The position numbers and the translations under genes were made by a program. The notes beneath the pieces are model-generated. The model was not told where the DNA came from, did not search any database, and saw nothing but the letters and a program-made list of their open reading frames with translations. Shown here one piece after another: positions 393 through 17,619 of a stretch of DNA of 36,649 nucleotides (its first letter is position 1; every line of letters starts with the position of its first letter). The stretch comes from Syntrophobacteraceae bacterium (GTDB taxonomy: Bacteria > Desulfobacterota > Syntrophobacteria > Syntrophobacterales > Syntrophobacteraceae): assembly GCA_031292215.1 (NCBI GenBank), contig JARLHO010000163.1, positions 1-36,649 of the forward strand, in the 5' to 3' direction.

Positions 393-2399
393 ATGGAATC
401 TATTTTGGCGGAGCAATCGCTAAAGACAGGGCTATGTCGGTCGCCTGCCATGCACCCGCATCTGGCTTCGATACGATCGATATTGGAAGACGTAAGACAT
501 GTCACCATGTCGGAGCAGTCCGAGGATGGAAGCTGGCGCTATCTGCTCGAAGGAAGCGTCCTGGCAAACGCCTACTATATCCTGGTCGAAGCCTTATTCC
601 CTCCCTCGGACAGACTTCTTGTCGAAAGCCTGGCCAGGTCCATGGAACGACGACAGATGGCCAATGGCGGCTTTGGTCTTTTCCCGGAGCATCCCGGAGA
701 TTTCAGCACTACGCTTGAAGCTTACCTGGCTTTGCGCCTGGCCGGCCGCCCTCCGGAAGCAGAAAGTGTCGCGGGGGCCAAACGGTTTCTGTGCGCGACC
801 CGGCATGAGCAGAATCTGTCCAATTTGACGCGGGTAACGCTTGCCGCCTTGGGTGTCATACCCTGGTCGGCAGTCCCGGTTTTGCCTCCCGAAATAATTT
901 TGCTGCCGGGCAGGGTCCCTTTTAGCCTCTACGATCTGGCGAGCTATACGCGCGTGCATATGCCCGCGATTATGCTCCTTGCAGCCATGAACGCGAGCCG
1001 CGAGGTTTCCCTCGCCTCGGAAATAAGGGCTCTTCTCGCTCCGCGCCATTTGCGGGCCACGGCATGCTCGCACCCCCTGCTGGGACGGCTCGACCGGCTG
1101 CTCGGGCCACTTCTAGAGCCGATGGTCACACTATGGCGCGCAACGGGGGCCAGAAAGCGGTCCATGGAGTTATGCCGCCGTTTTATCAGGGATCGGGTCG
1201 AAGCGGACGGAACGCTTGGCAGTTATTTGCTCTCGACGATATTTTCGATGTTTGCGCTCTCGTTTCTTGGTCGGCCGGAGGATGCCGAACTGGTTTGCTG
1301 CATGAAAGCTGGGCTTAGGGGTTTTACTTTCGAGAAAAACGGCGAATTGCTCATGCAGCCGTGTACTTCGGCTGTGTGGGATACGGCGCTAAACGTCGCG
1401 GCTTTGCGCCGTCTGGGAGTTTCGGACAGCGACGCCTCGCTTCTTCGAGCGGTCGATTGGCTTTTGGACCGCGAGATCACGGTATTTCCCGACCTTTGGA
1501 AGCGCACCCCGGCAATCCGCGGAGGCGCCTGGGGATTTCAGGCGGTTAACCGCTTTTATCCGGATGTCGACGACACCTGCGCGGTTCTAACGGCCATAAG
1601 CGGTCTGGGCGACCGGTTGGAGCCAAGGGTGGGCGAGGCATTTGCCCGGGGAGTCGAGTGGGTGTTGGCCATGCAAAATCGTGACGGGGGCTTTAGCGCT
1701 TTCGATGTTAACAGCTCCCGGCAATTTCTTGAGCGGCTGCCCTTTAACGACATGGGCCGCGCGATGATCGATCCGAGTTCGGCGGACATGACCGGGCGCA
1801 CCGTGATGTTTTTGTGCGATCTGCGCGACGGGAGGGCCGCCCGCTCGATTCAAAGAGGACTAGCCTGGCTTTACTCGCACCAGGAAACAGACGGTTCGTG
1901 GTGGGGGCGCTGGGGGATCAGTTTCATCTACGGGACCTGGGCCGCGCTCCTTGGCTTGGGTGCGGCCGGGGTGAATCGATTCAATTCCAAGATCGTGGAG
2001 CGAGGATGTAACTGGCTGCGATCGGTGCAAAACGGTGATGGGGGCTGGGGGGAGTCCTGCCGCTCGGATGTGGATGGATGCTTTGTGGGGCGCTCGGAAA
2101 GTACGCCTTCGCAGACCGCATGGGCCCTGGAAGGTCTTTTGGCCTCAGGTTGCAGTCCCCGGGAGGCCGCTTTACGGCGCGGTATCGAATTTTTGATCGA
2201 GAGGTATCGGCCAGGGATCGGGTGGGAGGAAAATTACCCGACGGGAGCGGGATTTGCGGGCAAATTATATCTCATTTATCACAACTATGGAAACCTGTGG
2301 CCGACAATGACGCTTTTGCGGGCAGGCCGTATTCTGGAAATGCAACTGCTGTCGCGGGCCGAGAAAATTATCCGCCCGGCGCGATGCGCAGCCTTATAA
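393..2399 (+). CDS. shc: Squalene-hopene cyclase
   Basis: This is a class II triterpene cyclase that protonates and folds squalene into hopene (hopanoid biosynthesis, HpnF type), a monotopic membrane enzyme. The catalytic motif DVDDT lies at residues 391-395, with D393 the likely proton donor by comparison with known cyclases. QW-type repeats are visible as QNRDGGF (about 428), QETDGSWWGRW (about 497) and QNGDGGWGE (about 546). Other family landmarks are an N-terminal DGSW, PSSADMTGR, STPSQTAWAL and a C-terminal GAGFAGKLYLIYHNYGN block that keeps the two aromatic tyrosines. The length of 668 aa is normal. The ATG at 393 has only a weak upstream AGG; an internal Met at residue 20 is an alternative start. 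The radical-SAM gene follows 51 bases downstream, so the two are probably cotranscribed. Confidence 0.93.
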   Translation: MESILAEQSLKTGLCRSPAMHPHLASIRSILEDVRHVTMSEQSEDGSWRYLLEGSVLANAYYILVEALFPPSDRLLVESLARSMERRQMANGGFGLFPEHPGDFSTTLEAYLALRLAGRPPEAESVAGAKRFLCATRHEQNLSNLTRVTLAALGVIPWSAVPVLPPEIILLPGRVPFSLYDLASYTRVHMPAIMLLAAMNASREVSLASEIRALLAPRHLRATACSHPLLGRLDRLLGPLLEPMVTLWRATGARKRSMELCRRFIRDRVEADGTLGSYLLSTIFSMFALSFLGRPEDAELVCCMKAGLRGFTFEKNGELLMQPCTSAVWDTALNVAALRRLGVSDSDASLLRAVDWLLDREITVFPDLWKRTPAIRGGAWGFQAVNRFYPDVDDTCAVLTAISGLGDRLEPRVGEAFARGVEWVLAMQNRDGGFSAFDVNSSRQFLERLPFNDMGRAMIDPSSADMTGRTVMFLCDLRDGRAARSIQRGLAWLYSHQETDGSWWGRWGISFIYGTWAALLGLGAAGVNRFNSKIVERGCNWLRSVQNGDGGWGESCRSDVDGCFVGRSESTPSQTAWALEGLLASGCSPREAALRRGIEFLIERYRPGIGWEENYPTGAGFAGKLYLIYHNYGNLWPTMTLLRAGRILEMQLLSRAEKIIRPARCAAL

Positions 2400-2450
2400 A
2401 ACCTCGTAGCCTGCGGGGTGGAAACTCTTAGCTTGAAGGAGTGCCCGAAG

Positions 2451-4106
2451 ATGAATTTTCAAACTACTGCGGCTTACCGCGCCCCCGGACACGAACGACG
2501 AATCCTGTGCGTATTCCCCAGGTATGGGATGTCGTTTGGAACCTTTAACTACTCGTTTGCGCTGGCCCCGCCTGTCAAAGCCTTCATGCCGCCGCAGGGG
2601 TTGCTTCTCATTGCGGCGCTGATGCCCAAAGATTGGCAGGTCCGGTTCATCGATGAAAACAATGCGTCGGCCACCGTTGAGGATTTTCGTTGGGCCGACG
2701 CGGTATTTACCTCCGGCATGCACATTCAGCGGGAAGCAATACGCGACGTGATAGAGCGGGGACACAGGGCGGGAAAGTCGGTCATACTCGGGGGCGCATC
2801 GGCCTCAGCCGCTCCGGAATGGTATCCGGAGGCCGACATTATCCATGCGGGAGAAGCAGGGGACGCAACCCTTAAAATCTTCGAATGGGTCGACCGGGAC
2901 CCCTCGCGGCCGCCCGCGCAGGAGATATTTTTCACCTCCGAGCGGCTCAGCATGACCGAGTATCCCCCGCCGGCTTATCACCTGATCGACTTATGCCAAT
3001 ACTTCTTAAGTTCTGTGCAATTTTCCAGCGGATGTCCCAACGGGTGCGAGTTTTGCGACGTCCCGGTCCTCTACGGTCGAAAACCTCGGCGCAAGACACC
3101 GGCGCAAATCATCGCGGAACTCGATCTCCTTGCGGCGGGCGGCGCACCGTCTGTCCATTTTTTGGACGACAACTTCTTCGGCGACCCCGAAGCCACGCGC
3201 GAGTTGCTCCATGAGCTGGTGGCCTGGCAGGACAAATGGGATTGCCTTGTGCGTCTATCCTGCGAAGCGACCCTGGAGATTTCCCAGCACCCCGATCTTT
3301 GCGAACTGCTCCAAAAGGCCTATTTCACCAACATCTTTTGCGGAGTGGAAAGCCCGGAGCCCGAAGCTCTGCGGGCCATAAAGAAATCCTTTAACACAAA
3401 AACCCCCATCCTCGAGGCCATCGATACCTTCAACCGCTATGGCATGGAGGTCGCCGTAGGGCTCATCATGGGCTTTGATACGGACACCGCGGAAACTCCC
3501 CGGGTGCTCGCCGACTTTGTCCGCGCCTCCCAGACCCCCGTCACCACGCTCAACATCCTCTACGCCCTGCCCAAAACCCCGCTGTACAAACGGATGGAAA
3601 CGGCCGGAAGAATCGTCTCCGACACAGGCCGAGACTCCAATATAGAATTCCTGCGACCCTATGACGAGCTGATCAATGACTGGCTTGGCCTCATCGCGGA
3701 GGTGTATGAGCCCCAAGCCCTCTACCAGCGCTACGAAACCCAGGCGATAAAAACCTACCCCAATCGCCGCCGTCCAAAATTCCCGCTGCGCCAGGTCACC
3801 CCTCGCAATCTTCGCCGCGCCTTTTCCATTTTTATCCGGCTGATCTGGCATGTGGGAATCCGCTCCGATTACCGCAGGGTTTTCTGGCGGATGTTTCGAA
3901 CCCAGTTACGCCGGGGGCTGATCGAAAACATTTTCCAGATAGCCCTCGTCGCCCACCATCTCATCCTGTACAGCCGCGACACGATCGCGGGGCGCATACA
4001 CGCGTGCCACTTCGCTCCCCGCATTCGGTGGCAGACGTCGTCTGCCCAATTGCAGGAGACTGAGTCAAATGAAACGGCCTCATCTTCTGCTCTCGTCCCC
4101 AAATGA
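2451..4106 (+). CDS. hpnP: B12-binding radical SAM hopanoid C-2 methylase (HpnP-like)
   Basis: The protein (551 aa) has an N-terminal cobalamin-binding-like domain, a radical SAM core and a DUF4070-type C-terminal region. The [4Fe-4S]/SAM motif is SGCPNGCEFCDV, with cysteines at residues 195, 199 and 202. Several blocks match what I recall of HpnP rather than generic DUF4070 proteins: SFGTFNYSF, KAFMPPQGLLLIAA, SGMHIQR, VQFSSGCP, YGMEV, and a long C-terminal tail including WHVGIRSDYR and VAHHLILY. HpnP installs the C-2 methyl group of hopanoids. I chose the ATG at 2451 because AAGGAG sits nine bases upstream; the frame is open to a GTG at 2418 without such a site. It lies 51 bases after shc. 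Its last 27 bases overlap the 3' end of the convergent exporter gene. The alternative is another B12-radical-SAM methylase acting on a hopanoid. Confidence 0.82.
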   Translation: MNFQTTAAYRAPGHERRILCVFPRYGMSFGTFNYSFALAPPVKAFMPPQGLLLIAALMPKDWQVRFIDENNASATVEDFRWADAVFTSGMHIQREAIRDVIERGHRAGKSVILGGASASAAPEWYPEADIIHAGEAGDATLKIFEWVDRDPSRPPAQEIFFTSERLSMTEYPPPAYHLIDLCQYFLSSVQFSSGCPNGCEFCDVPVLYGRKPRRKTPAQIIAELDLLAAGGAPSVHFLDDNFFGDPEATRELLHELVAWQDKWDCLVRLSCEATLEISQHPDLCELLQKAYFTNIFCGVESPEPEALRAIKKSFNTKTPILEAIDTFNRYGMEVAVGLIMGFDTDTAETPRVLADFVRASQTPVTTLNILYALPKTPLYKRMETAGRIVSDTGRDSNIEFLRPYDELINDWLGLIAEVYEPQALYQRYETQAIKTYPNRRRPKFPLRQVTPRNLRRAFSIFIRLIWHVGIRSDYRRVFWRMFRTQLRRGLIENIFQIALVAHHLILYSRDTIAGRIHACHFAPRIRWQTSSAQLQETESNETASSSALVPK

Positions 4107-6329
4107 GGAGCAGAACTCGTAGATTTTGCTTATCGGGCGAGGCGCCCACCAGTTCCAGCGGCCAAGAAGGCGCATGGTCGCTGGAACGAGCAAACAGCGT
4201 ACCACGGTTGCATCGATTACGATAGCCAGCCCCATGGCGATCCCTATCTCCTTTATGACCGTGAGGTCGGCGAAGGCGAACGCGAAAAGCACAAGGGCCA
4301 TTATCGCCGCGGCGCCGGTGACCATCCGGCCGGTTCGCTCCAGGCTCCGGGCGACCGAGCGGGTATTGTCGCATGTTTTTGCAAACTCCTCGTTGACCCT
4401 GTTTAGCAGCAGCACTTCATAGTCCATCGACAGTCCAAAAATCATGCAAAACATCATGATCGGGTTCATCGCCTCGATTGGACCCGGCGTAAAGTGAAGA
4501 ATGGTCGAGAGGTGACCGTACTCAAAGATCCAGACCAGCGCACCGTAGGAGGCGCTAATTGACAAAATGTTCATCAGCACGGCCTTAAGGGGCAGCAGGA
4601 AAGACCTTAGCATGAGGAAAAGCACGAGGTAGGTCACGATGACCATGAAGCCGATCACGCGGGGAGACTGCGCTTTTATGGCCTCGATGAAATCGAGGTG
4701 AAAGGCGGTTTCCCCGGTAACCAGCACCTCCGCGCCCACTGGCGGGTGGGATGCGCGAATCGCTCGAACGAGGTTTAGCGCCTCTTTGCCCCCGGCGTCC
4801 AAAGAGGTTTGAGCGACGAGCATCACGATGTTTTTCCCAACCGTTTTTTTCAAGGCCGGTTGCAGGCCCTGCGGAAGCTCGGAGACCGGTCGCGAGTAGA
4901 GTCGCACGTATCCGCTGCGGCCTATGGCAGGGTTTAGGTCGACTATGCTCTCTACGGAGTTGACGCCGGGAAGTTTGGACAGCCGGCGGCTAAGGTCGTA
5001 GAGACCCAAGATGTGGTCGGCGCTAAGCGGTGAGCTCCCGGAATACTTGACCACTACAATGATCGGATTGGAATTGGCGTCCTTAAAATCTGTGTGGAGC
5101 TCTTCCCATCCCCTACGGGATTGGGCCGACTTCGGAAGCCCAGTGACATCGGTTGACCCGAGCTCAATGTTTCTAAACGGTATGCCGAGCATGAGGAGAA
5201 AGAGGACCGAGGGCACTAATACCCGCCACGGATGAGCCATCACTGCGGAGGCCAGGGTGTGCCAGAATCGAGTGGTTTTCCCGGGATCGGCGCCGCCTCC
5301 AAACGGGAGTCTCCACACGTTCACCTTAGGTCCCAAAACGGCCAGAATCGCCGGTAGAAAGGTCAAGGCGTACAAAACGGCGATCGCTACGACAATGGCG
5401 CCGGCCATGCCGATCGAATTGACATGGCCGGCGTCTAGCAGAAGTAAACCCAGAAAACCAGTTGCGACCGTTCCCCCGGAGAAAAGAACAGCCCGTCCGG
5501 TAGTCGAAATGGTTTCCTCCAGCGCCTCGGGGACAGGCAGGCGCGCGAGTTCATCGCGAAAGCGGCTCAAGATGAAGAGCGAATAATCTATGGCCACTCC
5601 CAGGCCAACCATCACGATGACATTTTTGGCGTAGACCAGCACCGGGGTAAAGTGGGACAGCACCAGGGCGCCGGCCATGCCGGCCGTTACGGCGAGCAGG
5701 CCGATTACGAGGGGAATAGCGGCCCCGACCACTGAGCCGAACACGAGGACGAGCACCAGCCCAACGACAGGGAGCACCCTGATTTCGCCCCGGCCGGCAT
5801 CGCGTTCCGCAAGCGTTGTGAGGTCGTAATTGCGTGGGGTATGGCCGAACGCGGTTACCTGGAGCAAGGCGGAATGCACTTTGGCGCGCAACTGCGGGTA
5901 GATTTCTGTGGTGATCTCATTTTGGTCTGCGCCGTTGTCCCTTATCTCCACCCTGGCGATTACCGCGCGCCCGTCGCGGGATATATAGCTTTGGTCTACC
6001 CTTGACCCTTCATAGGCGGTTTTAACCGATGCCACACGCGGGTCTTTGCGCAGCGGTTCGAGCGCCTGCAGGACTTCGCGCTTGAAGGCCGGATCGGTGG
6101 CTCTACGAGTTTGGCTTCGAAGGATCAGGCCAAAGGAGGGCAACCGAGAGGGGAGTTGCCTTTTTATTAAATCAAGCGCCTGCGCGGATTTGGTGTTTGA
6201 AGGGATTATTATCGATTCGAGGTGTCCCCCCCGGTTCGTGAGCCATAAGGTGGGGGCAAGGGAAAGAAGCGAAACGACGATTATGAGCCAACGAAAACGA
6301 TAAACGAGTCGAGCCCAGGATTTCAGCAT
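4080..6329 (-). CDS. MMPL/RND-superfamily transporter
   Basis: This 749-aa inner-membrane protein has the duplicated RND layout: a TM helix near residues 14-30, a periplasmic loop, a block of TM helices (about 180-350), a second loop and a second helical block (about 555-740). Charged intramembrane signatures typical of MMPL proteins are GLGVAIDYSLFILSRFRDE (about 240-260) and GLSMDYEVLLLNRVNEEF (about 632-650). MMPL proteins export lipids and hydrophobic compounds using the proton gradient. Convergence with shc-hpnP suggests a role in moving hopanoids or other lipids, comparable to HpnN, but it looks closer to the MMPL/YdfJ branch than to HpnN itself. The terminal codons overlap hpnP on the opposite strand by 27 bases. 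The substrate is unproven. Confidence 0.88.
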   Translation of the reverse strand: MLKSWARLVYRFRWLIIVVSLLSLAPTLWLTNRGGHLESIIIPSNTKSAQALDLIKRQLPSRLPSFGLILRSQTRRATDPAFKREVLQALEPLRKDPRVASVKTAYEGSRVDQSYISRDGRAVIARVEIRDNGADQNEITTEIYPQLRAKVHSALLQVTAFGHTPRNYDLTTLAERDAGRGEIRVLPVVGLVLVLVFGSVVGAAIPLVIGLLAVTAGMAGALVLSHFTPVLVYAKNVIVMVGLGVAIDYSLFILSRFRDELARLPVPEALEETISTTGRAVLFSGGTVATGFLGLLLLDAGHVNSIGMAGAIVVAIAVLYALTFLPAILAVLGPKVNVWRLPFGGGADPGKTTRFWHTLASAVMAHPWRVLVPSVLFLLMLGIPFRNIELGSTDVTGLPKSAQSRRGWEELHTDFKDANSNPIIVVVKYSGSSPLSADHILGLYDLSRRLSKLPGVNSVESIVDLNPAIGRSGYVRLYSRPVSELPQGLQPALKKTVGKNIVMLVAQTSLDAGGKEALNLVRAIRASHPPVGAEVLVTGETAFHLDFIEAIKAQSPRVIGFMVIVTYLVLFLMLRSFLLPLKAVLMNILSISASYGALVWIFEYGHLSTILHFTPGPIEAMNPIMMFCMIFGLSMDYEVLLLNRVNEEFAKTCDNTRSVARSLERTGRMVTGAAAIMALVLFAFAFADLTVIKEIGIAMGLAIVIDATVVRCLLVPATMRLLGRWNWWAPRPISKIYEFCSSFGDESRR

Positions 6330-8336: not shown

Positions 8337-8996
8337 ATGATCGAGTTGTATGAATTTCTAACGGGCCCCGCTGTCTGGGTCTCTTTTTCCATTTTCATCG
8401 GCGGCCTCCTGGTGCGGACGATCTACCTGCTCGGCGTGAGCCTGGAGCGGGACAGGGTTTTCTATAACCACGTCGATATGAAATGGGGGCTGCGCTCGAT
8501 TTTTCACTGGCTTGTTCCTCTTGGCAGCCGGTCGCTGAGGGCGCAGCCCGTTTTCGGGATAGCTTCTTTCGTCTTTCACCTCTTTCTTTTTGTCGTGCCG
8601 CTTTTCCTGCAGGCGCACAATATGCTTTTGCACGAGGCATTCGGGGTTTCTCTGCCCTCACTGCCCGAATCCCTGTCGGACATCCTGACGATTGTATTTT
8701 TGGCCGCCGGAGTGATTTTGCTTATAAGAAGGCTGGTGAAACCCGAAGTGCGAATCCTTACTTCGGCGTGGGACTATTTCCTTCTTCTATTCACATGCCT
8801 GCCCTTTGTGACCGGCCTTTTCGCCTACCATCAGATCGGCCCCTACCAGTCGATGCTGATTATTCACATTGTAAGCGCCGAAGCGTTACTCATACTCATC
8901 CCGTTTACCAAGCTCTCCCATGTTGTCCTGTTTTTCTTCTCCCGTGCTTTCATCGGGTTTGAAATGGGAACGCGCCGGGGAGCAAAAACCTGGTAA
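8337..8996 (+). CDS. tmcC: TmcC-like cytochrome b membrane subunit
   Basis: This 219-aa integral membrane protein belongs to the NarI/DsrM/HdrE family. About five hydrophobic helices are visible (near residues 12-32, 73-92, 113-133, 142-165 and 172-200), with histidines in or next to helices suitable for haem b. It would pass electrons between the menaquinone pool and the iron-sulfur subunit encoded next. ATG 8337 has AAAGG upstream. The iron-sulfur and c3 cytochrome genes that follow identify a transmembrane complex of the Tmc type, which in sulfate reducers links periplasmic c3 electrons to the membrane and cytoplasm. Gene order is C-B-A, unlike tmcABCD of Desulfovibrio. Confidence 0.8.
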   Translation: MIELYEFLTGPAVWVSFSIFIGGLLVRTIYLLGVSLERDRVFYNHVDMKWGLRSIFHWLVPLGSRSLRAQPVFGIASFVFHLFLFVVPLFLQAHNMLLHEAFGVSLPSLPESLSDILTIVFLAAGVILLIRRLVKPEVRILTSAWDYFLLLFTCLPFVTGLFAYHQIGPYQSMLIIHIVSAEALLILIPFTKLSHVVLFFFSRAFIGFEMGTRRGAKTW

Positions 8997-9048
8997 AGAC
9001 GCCGGCATTGCCGATATGGTTTCAAGGTCCGACAGGAGTACGGAAAAT

Positions 9049-10356
9049 ATGAGTGAGCAACTTGAAAAACCGGTAAACACGAAGGCGATAAAAGAGCTTT
9101 TGAGCCTCAACGACAGCGCCAGGATAAAGTCCTGGCTGAGCATATGTTCGCGTTGCGGTCTTTGCGCGGAGAGCTGTTTTTTCTATCTTGCCAAGAACAG
9201 GGACCCCAAGTTGTCGCCCGCCTACAAGGTGAAGGCTACCCTGCTCGAAATCTATAAAAGAAAAGGCAACGTCGATCGGGCTTTCCTGCAGAAGTGCCAC
9301 GACATCGCCTGGGGTGAGTGCACCACGTGCAAGCGCTGTTCGCTGTTTTGTCCGTTCGGAATCGATATCGCCACCATGATCTCGACGGTACGTTCCATCT
9401 GCAGCTCGCAGGGCGTCGTTCCGGAGGGGCTGGTGAGGACATCGGCCAATTACCGCGAATCGGGGAACCAGATGGGGATGGCGACCGAGGATTTCGTGGA
9501 AACCTGCACATGGATGGCCGAAGAAGCATGCGATGATGTGCGCGGAGTCGAAATCCCCATAGATAAGGCCGGTGCTCGCATCATGTACACCGTCAATGCC
9601 CGGGAGCCGATGTACTACCCGCAGGACATTTCCATGATGGCCCAGATTTTCACAGTGGCCGGGGAATCCTGGACCGTTCCCAGCACGGGGTGGGATTGCA
9701 CCAATCTGCCGATGTTTGCCGGCGACAAGGCCCTTGCGGGACAGGTAGTCAAGAACATGTACAGTAAGGCGCTTTCCCTCGGTGTCGAGGCCATTGCGAT
9801 AACCGAGTGCGGACATGCTTACCGATCCGCGCGGTTCGAAGGGCCGTATCTGGCCGGCTACCGGGACGGAAATCCGCCTGTTCCGATCATCCACTCGGTG
9901 CGCCTTTTTTACGAATACCTCCGGGACGGCCGGATAAAGATCGACCCGGCAAAGCTCATCGAGGCGCCGGTAACCTACCAGGACCCGTGCAACATCTCCC
10001 GAAACGGCGGACTGTGGCGGGAAGGCCGCGAGATCATACAATACCTGGCCAGGGATTTCCGCGATATGAGCCCCAACTCCGAGTACAACCATTGCTGCGG
10101 TGGGGGCGGCGGCTTTATTCCGATGGGCCCCGAGTTCAAACGAAGGAGAATGGAGTCGGGCAAGGTCAAGGCCGAACAGATCAGGGCCACGGGCACCAAG
10201 ATCGTGATCGCACCCTGCCATAACTGCACGGACCAGATAAACGACCTCAACAAGGAATACCAACTCGGAATCAAGGTGGTTTCCTTTAAGGAACTCATCA
10301 CTGAAATGATGCTTTTGCCCGATCATCTAAAGCCTGTGGAGGCTGAAGAGAAATAG
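9049..10356 (+). CDS. tmcB: TmcB-like HdrD-family iron-sulfur protein
   Basis: This cytoplasmic subunit (435 aa) has two [4Fe-4S] ferredoxin motifs, with cysteines at 33/36/39/43 and 91/94/97/101. Its C-terminal region has CCG domains of the heterodisulfide-reductase type. The second CCG motif is complete (C314, C349-C350 in HCCGGGGGF, C390 and C393 in PCHNC) and should hold a noncubane catalytic cluster. The first is degenerate (GWDCTN, ECGHA). Proteins of this class (HdrD, DsrK, TmcB) act on thiol/disulfide substrates, in sulfate reducers probably DsrC. I chose ATG 9049 because AGGAG lies ten bases upstream; the frame is open to 8920, but that start would overlap tmcC by 77 bases. It is cotranscribed with tmcC (52-base gap) and tmcA. 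Confidence 0.87.
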   Translation: MSEQLEKPVNTKAIKELLSLNDSARIKSWLSICSRCGLCAESCFFYLAKNRDPKLSPAYKVKATLLEIYKRKGNVDRAFLQKCHDIAWGECTTCKRCSLFCPFGIDIATMISTVRSICSSQGVVPEGLVRTSANYRESGNQMGMATEDFVETCTWMAEEACDDVRGVEIPIDKAGARIMYTVNAREPMYYPQDISMMAQIFTVAGESWTVPSTGWDCTNLPMFAGDKALAGQVVKNMYSKALSLGVEAIAITECGHAYRSARFEGPYLAGYRDGNPPVPIIHSVRLFYEYLRDGRIKIDPAKLIEAPVTYQDPCNISRNGGLWREGREIIQYLARDFRDMSPNSEYNHCCGGGGGFIPMGPEFKRRRMESGKVKAEQIRATGTKIVIAPCHNCTDQINDLNKEYQLGIKVVSFKELITEMMLLPDHLKPVEAEEK

Positions 10357-10404: not shown

Positions 10405-10773
10405 ATGAGATATCTCTACTTCGTGCTGATCGTTTTAATTTGTGCTCTGTGCTCTCAAACGGCGATGTCGCAGGATGACAGGTTCCTGCTCGATCACAAG
10501 GATTTGGGAAAGCACCAAAGGCCCCTTGTGGAATTCAACCATAAACTGCATTCCCAGGATATCCCGCTGGACTGCGTAAGATGCCACCATGATTTCGATA
10601 AAAACAAAAACAACAAGGGCGGAGAAGGGCAACCGTGCGACTCGTGCCATAAGAGGAAAGCGTCCAAGAAAATAGTTTCCCTGAAGGACGCCTTTCATGA
10701 GCAATGCACGGGCTGCCATAAATCCATGAACAAAGGGCCTGTCACGTGCGGAGGGTGTCACCGCCGCAAGTAG
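10405..10773 (+). CDS. tmcA: Periplasmic tetraheme cytochrome c3 (TmcA-like)
   Basis: This 122-aa precursor has a Sec signal peptide (residues 1 to about 22, ending TAMSQ). Four CxxCH haem-binding motifs are at 57-61, 78-82, 101-105 and 115-119, with extra histidines (NHKLH, CHH) for bis-His ligation, as in class III cytochromes. Type II c3 (TmcA) takes electrons from periplasmic hydrogenases or formate dehydrogenases, usually via type I c3, and feeds the Tmc membrane complex. It follows tmcB by 48 bases, and the three genes form a complete minimal Tmc set. I see no tmcD; the next gene encodes a DsrC-family protein instead. Confidence 0.88.
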   Translation: MRYLYFVLIVLICALCSQTAMSQDDRFLLDHKDLGKHQRPLVEFNHKLHSQDIPLDCVRCHHDFDKNKNNKGGEGQPCDSCHKRKASKKIVSLKDAFHEQCTGCHKSMNKGPVTCGGCHRRK

Positions 10774-10944
10774 CGTTTTTTTCGTCTTAAGGCCTTAGGA
10801 TTTTGAGCGCCTTCGTGGTTACATAATGGCTGTTCGCGCCTCTGGAATTGGAGTATTTTATTGCCGGGGCCGATTAAAGAAATCGCCGTGGCGGCGTAAT
10901 GTACCGATTTCCTCGCATTTAACGGGCAGTGACAGGAGGGCAGG

Positions 10945-11604
10945 ATGCAGATCGTTGAATTAGTTGGAAAAAGCTACAAAATAGATGCCGATGAGTTCCT
11001 GCTCGACTCCAATCAGTGGGATGCTGATTTTGCCGAGGAAATGGCCCGGCGAAACGGCATGGCGGAAGGACTTTCCGCTTCTCATTGGCGTGTTTTGAAC
11101 TGCATCAGGGATTATTTTTCAAAAGAGGGCACCTGTCCAACCGCTTTTGACATCTGTAAGGCGTGCGGCCTGAGTTTGGCTCAATTGGCCAACCTTTTCC
11201 CGATGGATAACAAGCGGAGCGCCTATAAAATCGCAGGAATACCCTACTTTAGCCAGTATCCCGCCTACGTCAAGTGTACCGGCCGAAAGAACCCCATCCA
11301 GGAGAGGGTATACAGAATCGACATAGAGGGGTTTCTTGTCGATCCCGACGAATGGGACTGCGACTACGTCATATTCAGAATGCGCGACATGAACATCCCG
11401 GAGGCCTCCGACCTCCATTTCGACGTCATTCAGTTTCTGCGCAAACAATATTATGCCGCCGGTCGGATACCGACCGTTGAGCAGATCTGCGCGGCAAACG
11501 AGATTGACACCGAAGATTTCGGAGCGCTTTTCCCGGGCGACTTTTACCGCGCGGCGATAAAGGTCGCGGGATTGCGACCCGCTGCTCCCGGGGTCGGCAA
11601 TTAA
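10945..11604 (+). CDS. Tandem two-domain DsrC/TusE-like protein lacking the redox cysteines
   Basis: The 219-aa product is two DsrC/TusE-like domains in series (about 1-112 and 118-219). Each repeats the family pattern: a short beta start, (E/D)GFL or DEFLLD, a D/N-x-W acidic stretch (NQWDADF; DEWDCDY), a W/H-x-V-x-(N/Q)-x-(I/L)-R-(D/K) helix (HWRVLNCIRDYF; HFDVIQFLRKQYY), a LFP motif and a terminal (K/R)(S/A)AxK(I/V)AG. In catalytic DsrC the x in the last motif is the penultimate redox cysteine; here it is Tyr94 in domain 1 and Ile205 in domain 2. The C-terminal GCV cysteine is absent, the protein ending PGVGN. Domain 1 has C111 and several other cysteines. AGGAGG precedes the ATG by five bases. 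Its position after tmcCBA suggests a regulatory or adaptor partner of the complex. The fold assignment rests on motif reading only. Confidence 0.75.
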   Translation: MQIVELVGKSYKIDADEFLLDSNQWDADFAEEMARRNGMAEGLSASHWRVLNCIRDYFSKEGTCPTAFDICKACGLSLAQLANLFPMDNKRSAYKIAGIPYFSQYPAYVKCTGRKNPIQERVYRIDIEGFLVDPDEWDCDYVIFRMRDMNIPEASDLHFDVIQFLRKQYYAAGRIPTVEQICAANEIDTEDFGALFPGDFYRAAIKVAGLRPAAPGVGN

Positions 11605-14030: not shown

Positions 14031-15416
14031 TCAATTGAGGTTGAAAAACCTCTTTAGACGCTCAAGAAATTTGCCTTCCTCCACCTTTATCTCTTCGTGT
14101 TTTCGGACCAGCCCGGCATGATGTTTCAGACCGGCAAGCCGCTCGGTTACCGTTTTGCTAAAGGCCTCGGCAAGCCTCGAGTTTTCTGTAAGCAGCTTCT
14201 GGATGGTCGTCTTGTTTATCTCCAGGACTTCGGACTCCTCAACGGCGATCACATCGGCAGATCTGGGCTCACCGGAAAAAAGCGACATCTCTCCGAAAAC
14301 CCCCCCCGCGTTTAGCACGGCAACGGTCGAATGGTCCCCGGACACCCGCACCTCGGCTTTGCCCCGGCCGATTACGAACATCGAATCCCCGGCCTGGCCG
14401 CCTCGCACCATGTACTCTCCGGGAGCAAAGAGCCGCACGGGGCTAAGGGTCAAAAGCGCCTCCTTTTCAACCGGTGTCAGCGGCTGGAATATGTCGATCC
14501 CCTCGATTGCGCACCGGTAGTCGACACAAAGAGTATTTTGCGGACCTTCGGGTTTTATCTTTTCGAGCAGGACGCGCCGGGTGGGGAAAGGCATGTCGAT
14601 ATTTTCCCGGTAGAAGGCGTACCACAGCCTCTCTCTAATTGTCGCACTGGTGGCGCTCACCGTCATGTAGTCCTTGGTCCAATAGAAGGCCTCATAATCG
14701 AGGCTCGATTCGCCAAAGCCGGTTATGCGGACCCGGGGCTCGACTTCATAGGAAACCTCGGGTAGACCTTGGAGCGCACTTTTTGCGACATTTATGACGG
14801 TTTGGGGAGAAACCGAACACGTTGCCGAAAAAGGGACCGCATGGCGGTGAAGGCCCTCGTAGGCAAACACCTCTATCGGCTCTTTGGCCAGAAGACTATT
14901 GGGGAATATCAAAAGCGAGCTGTCGTTTGTGCGCAGAGTCGTCGTGCGCCAGCTAACACTTTGGACCTCTCCCGCACGGTCGCGGAACCTGATGCTGTCC
15001 TTAATTTTAAAGGGCTGTTCGATGTGCAGGGAGGCCCCGGCGAAAAAATTTCCGAGGGTATCCTGCAAGGCAAATCCGACTACCACCGAAACGGCGGCCG
15101 AGGTGGCGACAAGGCCGGTCACATCGTATTTTAGCACGAGGCCCATCAGGAGCATGAAAAGCGTTGAATAGGAGACCAGCGAAAACATGATCTTCAGTAG
15201 GCCGGGAGCTTCCCGCCCGGTGCGTTTGAGATACAGGCCGTCAAAAAAAAGGCGGCTGCACCATCGAATGATCGTCATGCCAAGAAGAGCGTAGCAAAAC
15301 GCGAGTATATCCCTCAAAATGTCTGCGTGGATCGGACCCGGCGCCCAGGCCCTGAGGGCGAAGTAGAGGGAAAAGCTTACCAGTGTGGCTGCAGCGGGTC
15401 GGATTATATGCTTCAT
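14031..15416 (-). CDS. MscS-family channel with C-terminal cyclic-nucleotide-binding domain
   Basis: This 461-aa inner-membrane channel resembles bacterial cyclic-nucleotide-gated MscS homologues (bCNG). Helices are visible near residues 5-25, 36-55 and 75-98. The MscS pore helix region (ATSAAVSVVVGFALQDTLGN, about 107-126) and the beta domain (RDRAGEVQSVSWRTTTLR) follow. Residues about 310-430 form a cNMP-binding fold: FAPGEYMVRGGQAGDSMFVI and the phosphate-binding cassette FGEMSLFSGEPRSADV, which has the Glu and Arg needed to bind cAMP or cGMP. The end is a charged coiled-coil-like tail. The upstream gene, only 10 bases away, encodes a nucleotide cyclase, so the channel is probably opened or closed by the product of its operon neighbour. 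Confidence 0.9.
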   Translation of the reverse strand: MKHIIRPAAATLVSFSLYFALRAWAPGPIHADILRDILAFCYALLGMTIIRWCSRLFFDGLYLKRTGREAPGLLKIMFSLVSYSTLFMLLMGLVLKYDVTGLVATSAAVSVVVGFALQDTLGNFFAGASLHIEQPFKIKDSIRFRDRAGEVQSVSWRTTTLRTNDSSLLIFPNSLLAKEPIEVFAYEGLHRHAVPFSATCSVSPQTVINVAKSALQGLPEVSYEVEPRVRITGFGESSLDYEAFYWTKDYMTVSATSATIRERLWYAFYRENIDMPFPTRRVLLEKIKPEGPQNTLCVDYRCAIEGIDIFQPLTPVEKEALLTLSPVRLFAPGEYMVRGGQAGDSMFVIGRGKAEVRVSGDHSTVAVLNAGGVFGEMSLFSGEPRSADVIAVEESEVLEINKTTIQKLLTENSRLAEAFSKTVTERLAGLKHHAGLVRKHEEIKVEEGKFLERLKRFFNLN

Positions 15417-15426
15417 TGGAGCGTCC

Positions 15427-17619
15427 TTACTTGTTTACCAGGTTCCAGATGGCATCCCAGTCACTGTCGGGGTCTTTAAGGAGAGCGCGGCAGCGGTTGG
15501 CATAGAGCCTGGAGGGCGGATCGTCGGGGCTTGCTTCCAATAGTTCCAAAGCCTGCTTCCACTTTTTTTCCAGGCAGAAGGCGAGCGCCCGGTTAAAGTC
15601 GGATCGGGCGTTGTCGGCGCCGGGTTCAAATACCTCCACGGGGGTCTCGCGCCCCACCACCCGGATAAAGCCCAGCCGTCTTCCCGAAAACCTGTTGGAA
15701 GTTTTTTGCCAGGTCTTTGCGGAGACCATTATGTTCGTTCCAAAAAACTTGTTTGCCCCTTCCAGGCGCGAGGCCAGGTTTGCGGCATCTCCCAGCACGG
15801 TATAGTCAAAGCGTTTCGTGGACCCCATGTTCCCCACCACGACGGGGCCGGTGTTTATGCCTATCCGCATCCGGATGGGCGAGCCGGCCATACTCGCATA
15901 AATTTGGCGCTGCTCCCGGATTTTTTCCTGGCACTTTAGCGCCGCGCGTACGGCGCGTTCGGCGTGGTCCACCTGATCGGCCGGGGCGTTCCAGAAGGCT
16001 ATGATCGCATCTCCTTCGTACTTGTCCAGGGTGCCGCCCTCACCCAGGATGATATCGGTCATATCAGAGAGCACCCGGTTTAGCAACCGGGTGAGGCTTT
16101 CGGGGTCGAGCCTTTCGGAAATCGCAGAAAACCCCTGGAGGTCGGAAAAAAAGATGGAGAGCTCCTTTCGCTCCCCCCCGAGTTTCAGGTGTGAGGGGTC
16201 TTCGAGTATGCGCTCGATCACCGCCGGGCTTAAGTAGTGGCGGAAGGCCTTTTTGATGAAGGCTTTCTTGCGGCCTTCGGTCGCGTAATTTAGGACAATG
16301 CCTCCGGCAAGGGCTGTTGTAACGGCCAATTCCTGAACGACAACGGGCCACCAGAGCCCGAATAGATAGGTGGCAAAGCCCAAAGCCACCGGCAGGGGAG
16401 AAAATAGGGCTATCCAGCAAACGCTTTGCCACGGATGGTTGGCAAAGGAGACGAGGCAAAGCGCGGCCAGAACGGCAAGGGCCGAGGTGGACACGATGAC
16501 CCAAACGGGTGAAAGATCCCTTAGGAAATCGCCGGTAAGGAGGTTATCGAGTAGCGTTGCGTGGATTTCAACCGCGGGGGAGATCCCAAGAGGTGTGGGG
16601 CTGAGATCGGCAAGCCCCGGAGCGGAAAAGCCGAAAAAGACGTAGGCGCCCTTAAAAGAGGCGGCGTCTTTTATGAGTTCCCCGGCGCCGGATCGGCTAT
16701 TTATTTCCGACTCGATAACCGCGGCGGCGCTGTAGGACTTAAATGCGCCGGGAGGACCCCGGAACCTCAAAATCAGCTTGCCTTCCCGGTCAAGGGGGAC
16801 CTTCATGGAGCAAAGGTCGAGGCGGTCCAAACGAAGGCGCGCGGTAAGCGGTGAAAAGGAGCGGGCCCGGCCGCCGGGGCTTGCGCCCTTTGCCGCATGC
16901 CCCGCGGCGAATGCCGCAAGCCCCGGGGAAGGCACCACGTTTGCGCCCAGCACCCCAAACAGGCTTAGGCGGCGAAATATCCCGTCCGCATCGGGTTCGG
17001 CGATAACGTTGGCGAGTGTGGCGGCATTGGCCGCGACTTCTTCGATGGGAAAGGTGGCCGAAAATCTTTGGAACTTCCCTGCGGATTTGACCGCCATAAG
17101 CCGTTTAAGATTAACGATGTCGATGAGTTGTCGGTCGGGAATGGAGGCGGGCCAGGTCCGGGAGAAGTTCGCCTCTTTGTGCAGACAAAGGGAGGCTACA
17201 AAGAAGGGCGCCCGGCCGATGGCCTCTTTTAGCTTCCGGTCATCGTCTACCGAAATCGGGGAGGGCTCGGAGAACAAAACGTCAAATATCACGGCCTTTG
17301 CGCCGTTTCGCGTGCAAAAATCGATAATCGGGGCATAGACCTCGCGGGGCCAAGGCCAGGAGACGCCGATCTGTTTTTTCCCCCAGTCAAGACTTTGCTG
17401 GTCGAGCAGGATGAGCTTTACGGCCTTGGTTTCCGGGCCTCCGCAGGCCAAAAAGTGAACCCTCCAGCTCCACGTGGCGTACTCGAACCGGTCAAGGACG
17501 CCCGAATGCCAGGCGAGAAGGGAGGCGAGGGCGGCCAGGGCCCCTACAGCGATCCCTTCGACCGCCCTGCGATGTAGTAGGGCGCCCGCCGCTCGAAGCA
17601 GGCGCCCGGAAACTGCCAT
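15427..17619 (-). CDS. CHASE2-domain class III adenylate cyclase
   Basis: The protein (730 aa) has an N-terminal TM helix (about 20-40), an extracytoplasmic CHASE2 sensor (about 45-350, including SWPWPREVYAPII and AVIFDVLFSE), three further TM helices (about 365-450) and a class III catalytic domain (about 480-655). Catalytic features are FSDLQGFSAISE (metal Asp, near 491), LDKYEGDAIIAFW (Lys that selects adenine, second metal Asp, near 530) and DYTVLGDAANLASRLE (transition-state Asn and Arg, near 606-620). The Lys plus Asp-Tyr-Thr favour ATP over GTP, so it probably makes cAMP. A C-terminal helical segment of about 70 residues follows. The gene sits 18 bases after the M48 protease gene and 10 bases before the cNMP-binding channel gene. 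The CHASE2 ligand is unknown. Confidence 0.9.
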   Translation of the reverse strand: MAVSGRLLRAAGALLHRRAVEGIAVGALAALASLLAWHSGVLDRFEYATWSWRVHFLACGGPETKAVKLILLDQQSLDWGKKQIGVSWPWPREVYAPIIDFCTRNGAKAVIFDVLFSEPSPISVDDDRKLKEAIGRAPFFVASLCLHKEANFSRTWPASIPDRQLIDIVNLKRLMAVKSAGKFQRFSATFPIEEVAANAATLANVIAEPDADGIFRRLSLFGVLGANVVPSPGLAAFAAGHAAKGASPGGRARSFSPLTARLRLDRLDLCSMKVPLDREGKLILRFRGPPGAFKSYSAAAVIESEINSRSGAGELIKDAASFKGAYVFFGFSAPGLADLSPTPLGISPAVEIHATLLDNLLTGDFLRDLSPVWVIVSTSALAVLAALCLVSFANHPWQSVCWIALFSPLPVALGFATYLFGLWWPVVVQELAVTTALAGGIVLNYATEGRKKAFIKKAFRHYLSPAVIERILEDPSHLKLGGERKELSIFFSDLQGFSAISERLDPESLTRLLNRVLSDMTDIILGEGGTLDKYEGDAIIAFWNAPADQVDHAERAVRAALKCQEKIREQRQIYASMAGSPIRMRIGINTGPVVVGNMGSTKRFDYTVLGDAANLASRLEGANKFFGTNIMVSAKTWQKTSNRFSGRRLGFIRVVGRETPVEVFEPGADNARSDFNRALAFCLEKKWKQALELLEASPDDPPSRLYANRCRALLKDPDSDWDAIWNLVNK

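Follow-up and report, generated by a model that had tools for sequence, protein, structure and literature searches.

2-Methylhopanes, fossil biomarkers, are taken to indicate cyanobacteria or, more cautiously, aerobes in general. A preliminary description of contig JARLHO010000163.1, from Syntrophobacteraceae bacterium assembly GCA_031292215.1, reported a gene for an HpnP-type hopanoid C-2 methylase directly behind a squalene-hopene cyclase (SHC) gene in an apparently anaerobic bacterium. The stretch examined, positions 1 to 36,649 of this contig, is called the window below. The locus raises the questions of whether the methylase is HpnP, which cyclase precedes it, and whether the host is an anaerobe. 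The window does carry a well-placed HpnP gene, and its gene arrangement is unusual. The core observation, a cyclase-family gene followed on the same strand by an HpnP-type gene, is confirmed by family models, by a phylogenetic tree, and by a spacing of 51 nt between the two genes. A third gene, convergent with hpnP and overlapping its end by 27 nt, encodes a transporter with a weak resemblance to the hopanoid transporter HpnN. The three features, with the basis for each, are as follows.

393..2399, + strand: SHC2, squalene-hopene-cyclase-family protein, 668 aa (TIGR01507, PF13243/PF13249, tree, residues)
2451..4106, + strand: hpnP, B12-binding/radical-SAM/DUF4070 protein of the HpnP clade (Pfam domains, tree, orthologue starts)
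4080..6329, - strand: MMPL-family RND transporter (PF03176; NCBIfam MmpL3/HpnN matches under cut-off)

Placement among HpnP and HpnP-like proteins

The putative methylase contains domains PF02310, PF04055, and PF13282 (DUF4070), the last scoring 101.5 bits against a Pfam gathering score of 22, and a CxxxCxxC motif formed by C206, C210, and C213 in the 562-aa reading. Two starts compete, the GTG at 2418, which gives the open reading frame listed first (2418-4106), and the ATG at 2451, which follows AAGGAG; the latter is likely the true start, and orthologues also begin there. The NCBIfam matches included no dedicated HpnP model, other B12/radical-SAM families matching weakly, and the name HpnP therefore rests on the tree. 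This is a maximum-likelihood tree of 54 rows, with relatives drawn from named genomes, related genomes, and plasmids. Two genera in which 2-methylhopanoids are known, Bradyrhizobium and Nostoc, supply the orthologues that anchor its HpnP clade, in place of the R. palustris protein itself.

DUF4070 proteins comprise HpnP plus several uncharacterised HpnP-like clades (PMC10697835), and in our tree the two kinds are parted by a branch with 100/100 support. The window protein groups on the HpnP side with proteins of Bradyrhizobium, Afipia, Methylocella, Nostoc, Scytonema, Rokubacteria, and Nitrospirota; on the opposite side are the 14 HpnP-like proteins without exception, among them the host's DUF4070 paralogue from contig C164. 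Repeating the placement without long branches gave the same outcome, with support of 100. The six Syntrophobacteraceae HpnP sequences form one 100/100 clade within a mixed group of Verrucomicrobia, Nitrospirota, and Planctomycetota. The phylogeny of HpnP and other DUF4070 proteins places the window protein inside the HpnP clade, not outside it, and the identity first proposed is borne out by this position with Bradyrhizobium and Nostoc HpnP, away from the HpnP-like DUF4070 proteins.

We defined as diagnostic 64 positions that are fixed in alphaproteobacterial and cyanobacterial HpnP and rare in HpnP-like proteins. The window protein has the HpnP residue at 48 of the 64, the HpnP-like proteins at 0-10. 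Its identity to Bradyrhizobium and Afipia HpnP is 48-50% (65-67% similarity), and to the paralogue from its own genome 28.5% (46% similarity). A published criterion, obtained by PSI-BLAST with R. palustris, gives about 55% or more similarity to verified HpnP for HpnP proteins and <34% for others (PMC12583986); our values of 65-67% for the window protein and 46% for the paralogue were measured against Bradyrhizobium by another method, so the yardsticks differ. Tree and diagnostic residues together rule out that the window protein is an HpnP-like paralogue, and its sequence supports assignment to HpnP in the sense of clade membership.

The window protein shares its three domains and its clade with known HpnP (R. 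palustris B3QHD1 and the Bradyrhizobium, Nostoc, and Afipia proteins). It differs from them at 16 of the 64 diagnostic residues, and in having its gene directly behind its own cyclase gene, facing an MMPL pump, in a Desulfobacterota host; C-2 methylase activity is predicted. HpnP-like DUF4070 proteins (the C164 paralogue and those of Chroococcidiopsis, Acaryochloris, and Komagataeibacter) have the same three domains as well, but at about 28-32% identity and from across the 100/100 branch. The host's second DUF4070 protein (L053:6115-7809, on G000:C164) is of an HpnP-like group widespread in the order.

The cyclase beside hpnP and its counterparts

SHC2 scores 492.3 bits against TIGR01507, the NCBIfam model for squalene-hopene cyclase (cut-off 431.1), and has the N- and C-terminal Pfam SQHop_cyclase domains; its similarity to a solved SHC (E 1.8e-104) settles its fold. 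It is one of two SHC-family proteins encoded in the host genome. The other, SHC1 on contig C19, is canonical, reaching 781 bits against TIGR01507, and is of a type present in nearly every family member searched. In a quick tree with SH-aLRT support only, SHC2 falls apart from SHC1, in a clade with three orthologues and a Planctomycetota protein, L188, whose genome also has HpnP. The preliminary description was correct that a cyclase-family gene adjoins hpnP, but on sequence grounds that gene is a divergent second cyclase, and the housekeeping SHC1 is encoded on C19. L188 itself (G436, the HpnP-bearing genome of L060) is an SHC2-type second SHC, 44% identical to the window cyclase and sharing Y261/L263/L605 with it; the contig that carries it differs in length from that of its hpnP.

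In the numbering of the Alicyclobacillus SHC (AacSHC), SHC2 retains the catalytic DVDDT motif, W312, F365, W489, F601, Y609, and Y612, and has Y169, Y261, L262, L263, and L605. The residues W169, I261, P263, and F605 are invariant in the canonical SHCs aligned, a set that SHC2 fails to keep: throughout its group (window protein, orthologues, and L188), W169 is replaced by Tyr or Phe, I261 by Tyr, P263 by Leu, and F605 by Leu. In engineering work, the point at which cyclisation stops was found to depend on I261 and F605 (PMC11165016). SHC2 is predicted to be active as a cyclase, probably, with an uncertain product; because the four residues are replaced, we do not assume that this product is hopene. 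Relative to bacterial SHC (Alicyclobacillus 1SQC/1gsz, and SHC1), SHC2 has the same fold, length, DxDD motif, and other retained residues listed above, but it is 34-35% identical to either, lacks the four invariant residues, and has its own clade with one Planctomycetota protein.

The window was compared with five related loci, L054, L055, L056, L057, and L063. The cyclase, hpnP, and MMPL genes are the sole genes common to the window, L054, L055, and L057, the other flanks differing; the sequence of L056 breaks off within the MMPL gene and that of L063 within hpnP, and up to those points both match the pattern. A cyclase gene lies immediately upstream of hpnP on the same strand in L054, L055, and L056, and a different cyclase holds this place in L057 and L063. 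Because every orthologous locus has this arrangement, the pairing is not chance. The direct pair was seen in Syntrophobacteraceae only. Genomes of the genus without HpnP have one canonical SHC (G002 has a second, of canonical type) and no SHC2, while HpnP-bearing genomes have an extra cyclase beside hpnP. Since cyclase, hpnP, and MMPL alone are shared among loci whose flanks differ, they look like a portable cassette, distinct from the family's near-universal housekeeping SHC1 and probably gained or lost as a unit.

The cyclases of L057 and L063 (L050:2084-4041, equal to L057:2084-4041, and L051:8612-10672, equal to L063:5757-7817) are 26-28% identical to SHC2. Their best family is tetrahymanol synthase, TIGR04277, with scores of 263 and 367 bits that stay under its 500-bit cut-off. 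Both have GTGHPG in place of GTGFPG, with His where Alicyclobacillus SHC has F601; the equivalence of their position 608 with F601 is our own reading. According to Takishita et al. (2012), the eukaryotic squalene-tetrahymanol cyclase (STC) is marked by His instead of Phe at the position of the C-ring cation; they could not identify a bacterial donor for it (PMC3317845). It is possible, judging from these features, that the L057/L063 cyclase is a bacterial relative of eukaryotic STC, whose best model and His it shares while the window SHC2 does not. It differs from eukaryotic STC in reaching 367 of the 500 bits, in being bacterial, and in lying beside hpnP. We did not file these cyclases as STC, the TIGR04277 cut-off having been missed and the comparison having covered bacterial sequences only. 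A plasmid search for relatives returned only ordinary SHCs at about 30%. The L063 cyclase gene is intact, but that of L057 is divided over two reading frames, perhaps through assembly error or decay.

The range of HpnP assumed at the outset, cyanobacteria, alphaproteobacteria, and some acidobacteria, is outdated. Hoshino et al. (2023) reported HpnP in 12 phyla, Deltaproteobacteria without squalene cyclase (SC) among them; they saw no synteny between SC and HpnP in any phylum, and in Deltaproteobacteria they found HpnP homologues in SC-lacking genomes only (PMC10697835). The Syntrophobacteraceae lineage departs from that account in both synteny and cyclase absence, although Hoshino et al. may have seen some of these metagenome-assembled genomes (MAGs). 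In Afipia sp. 1NLS2 (L107:7932-14702), hpnP, two squalene synthase (SQS)-family genes (HpnC/HpnD), an oxidoreductase gene (HpnE-like), and shc are contiguous. Because of this hpnP-to-shc row, the statement of no synteny in any phylum is too strong as a universal rule.

Host, oxygen, and squalene supply

The closest loci come from MAGs named Syntrophobacteraceae or 'Deltaproteobacteria', and the host, a relative of sulfate-reducing bacteria, groups with Syntrophobacteraceae MAGs (Desulfobacterota). Among 395 genomes drawn from the phylum, the host's own was the only one with an HpnP match at E <= 1e-110, and wide occurrence of HpnP in Desulfobacterota is accordingly rejected; within the genus, HpnP was found in 5 of 11 genomes. 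On these counts, HpnP here is a local, patchy acquisition.

Downstream of the MMPL gene lie genes for MutY and for TmcC/HmcE-, HmcF-, cytochrome c3-, and DsrC-like proteins, a benzoate-CoA-ligase-family gene, and a hydroxybenzoyl-CoA-reductase-like molybdo-hydroxylase. Those serving as context, outside the cassette, are:

8337..10356, + strand: TmcC/HmcE-like membrane anchor, then HmcF/TmcB-like iron-sulfur protein (NCBIfam)
10405..11604, + strand: class III cytochrome c and DsrC-like protein

At 8337-8996, TmcC scores 244.8 bits against an NCBIfam cut-off of 240. The initial claims of Tmc, cytochrome c3, and hydroxybenzoyl-CoA-reductase-like genes were thus right, but the anaerobic life they were taken to indicate is not borne out. 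A search with PF00115 found two complete heme-copper oxidase operons in the same assembly, on which an anaerobic host is rejected: L219 (G000:C117) is a complete coxBAC operon for an aa3-type oxidase, with Rieske and cytochrome b genes behind it, and L220 (G000:C11) is a cyoABCDE-type operon for a bo3-type quinol oxidase with a UbiA-family (heme O synthase-like) gene. COX1, the heme-copper oxidase, was found in all six HpnP-bearing genomes. Because of these coxBAC and cyo-type operons, the host is better described, from its gene content, as oxygen-capable rather than as a simple anaerobe, in agreement with the published association of HpnP with obligate and facultative aerobes (PMC10697835). 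Elsewhere in the window, at 14031-17619, an MscS-type channel with a C-terminal cyclic-nucleotide-binding domain adjoins a CHASE2-adenylate/guanylate cyclase, possibly a cNMP-gated channel paired with its own cyclase.

The host genome has HpnH (416 bits, cut-off 225), HpnA (447 bits, cut-off 368), and an HpnG-like gene. HpnA, HpnH, and a CruF-like carotenoid-hydratase-family protein are encoded in a row at L143:6816-11764 (G000:C132), with the HpnG-like gene nearby, and a hopanoid pathway is therefore expected in the host from these genes. The row also encodes a 671-aa protein without an NCBIfam or Pfam match; the idea that a squalene synthase is hidden beside HpnH was rejected, since HpnA, the CruF-like protein, and this protein are found there and no synthase. 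PF00494, the squalene/phytoene-synthase family, which covers squalene synthase, HpnC, and HpnD, was not found in the host genome or 13 relatives (0/14), 13 of which 14 have an SHC. HpnD was found in none of seven family genomes; other HpnP genomes gave HpnD-family matches in nine of nine, seven of them above cut-off. No known route of squalene synthesis, by SQS or HpnCDE, was found in the lineage, and its gene set falls short of a complete hopanoid pathway.

Proposed function and its rivals

We think it reasonably probable that the cassette of three genes supplies an oxygen-capable member of the Syntrophobacteraceae with a dedicated pool of pentacyclic triterpenoid, of predicted structure and methylated at C-2. 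SHC2 would protonate and cyclise squalene through its intact DVDDT motif, giving a hopene-like or differently terminated triterpene. HpnP, as its clade membership suggests, would methylate C-2 of ring A with methylcobalamin and radical SAM chemistry, and the MMPL pump, like HpnN with hopanoids, would carry the product towards the outer membrane. It is chemically plausible that the cyclase was exchanged while the methylase stayed, because HpnP is linked to methylated tetrahymanol as well as methylated hopanoids in alphaproteobacteria; those with hpnP make C-2-methylated C30 hopanoids, tetrahymanol, and bacteriohopanepolyols (PMC12583986). Several points weigh on the other side. The four replaced invariant residues may mean that SHC2 makes a product other than hopene; with no PF00494 in 14 genomes and no HpnD, the squalene substrate is unaccounted for; and carriage of hpnP is not always accompanied by a detectable 2-methyl product (PMC12583986).

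HpnP could instead act on the hopanoids of SHC1, SHC2 being a redundant or unrelated paralogue that lies next to hpnP through co-transfer. SHC1 is strongly canonical, HpnH and HpnA point to an active side-chain pathway for hopanoids, and SHC and hpnP lie apart in most genomes with HpnP, both in the loci we compared and in PMC10697835. We nevertheless regard this as unlikely: in every related locus a cyclase and hpnP stay together despite differing flanks, and even where the cyclase type has changed. Less probable still is that the cyclase uses a non-squalene polyprenoid and that the HpnP homologue methylates the resulting non-hopane product, giving a different terpenoid. The missing squalene synthase, the remodelled active site of SHC2, and the other cyclase type in L057 and L063 fit such a scheme, but it is opposed by the placement of HpnP with 75% of its diagnostic residues kept and by the presence of HpnH and HpnA, and squalene synthase is equally missing in all SHC-bearing family members tested, including those with a canonical SHC only. 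That the contig or its hopanoid genes came from another organism in the metagenome, as a binning artefact, is very improbable. All close relatives are MAGs, with contamination estimates of 3-9%; however, five MAGs of this family, each assembled separately, have orthologous cassettes that form one clade (100/100), the GC content of the window (0.556) lies within that of other contigs of the bin (0.526-0.561), and genes typical of the phylum (Hmc/Tmc, DsrC, and c3) are present on the contig.

The proposal of a dedicated C-2-methylated pool can be carried further, though only tentatively. An HpnP cassette with a dedicated, interchangeable cyclase, in some species an STC relative, might make 2-methyl triterpenoids beyond 2-methylhopanoids, such as 2-methyltetrahymanol, from squalene supplied by an unknown route, and the lineage might then be a candidate relative of the donor of eukaryotic STC.

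What is new relative to the survey in PMC10697835 is that a Desulfobacterota hpnP immediately follows a cyclase gene and that the two belong to a unit apparently mobile as a whole. Because the host has terminal oxidases, the lineage stays consistent with HpnP in oxygen-capable bacteria, and the proxy for aerobiosis is not broken. The partner cyclase differs between sister species, which offers a direct route to testing the substrate of HpnP, and the STC-like partner in L057 and L063 bears on the origin of eukaryotic STC.

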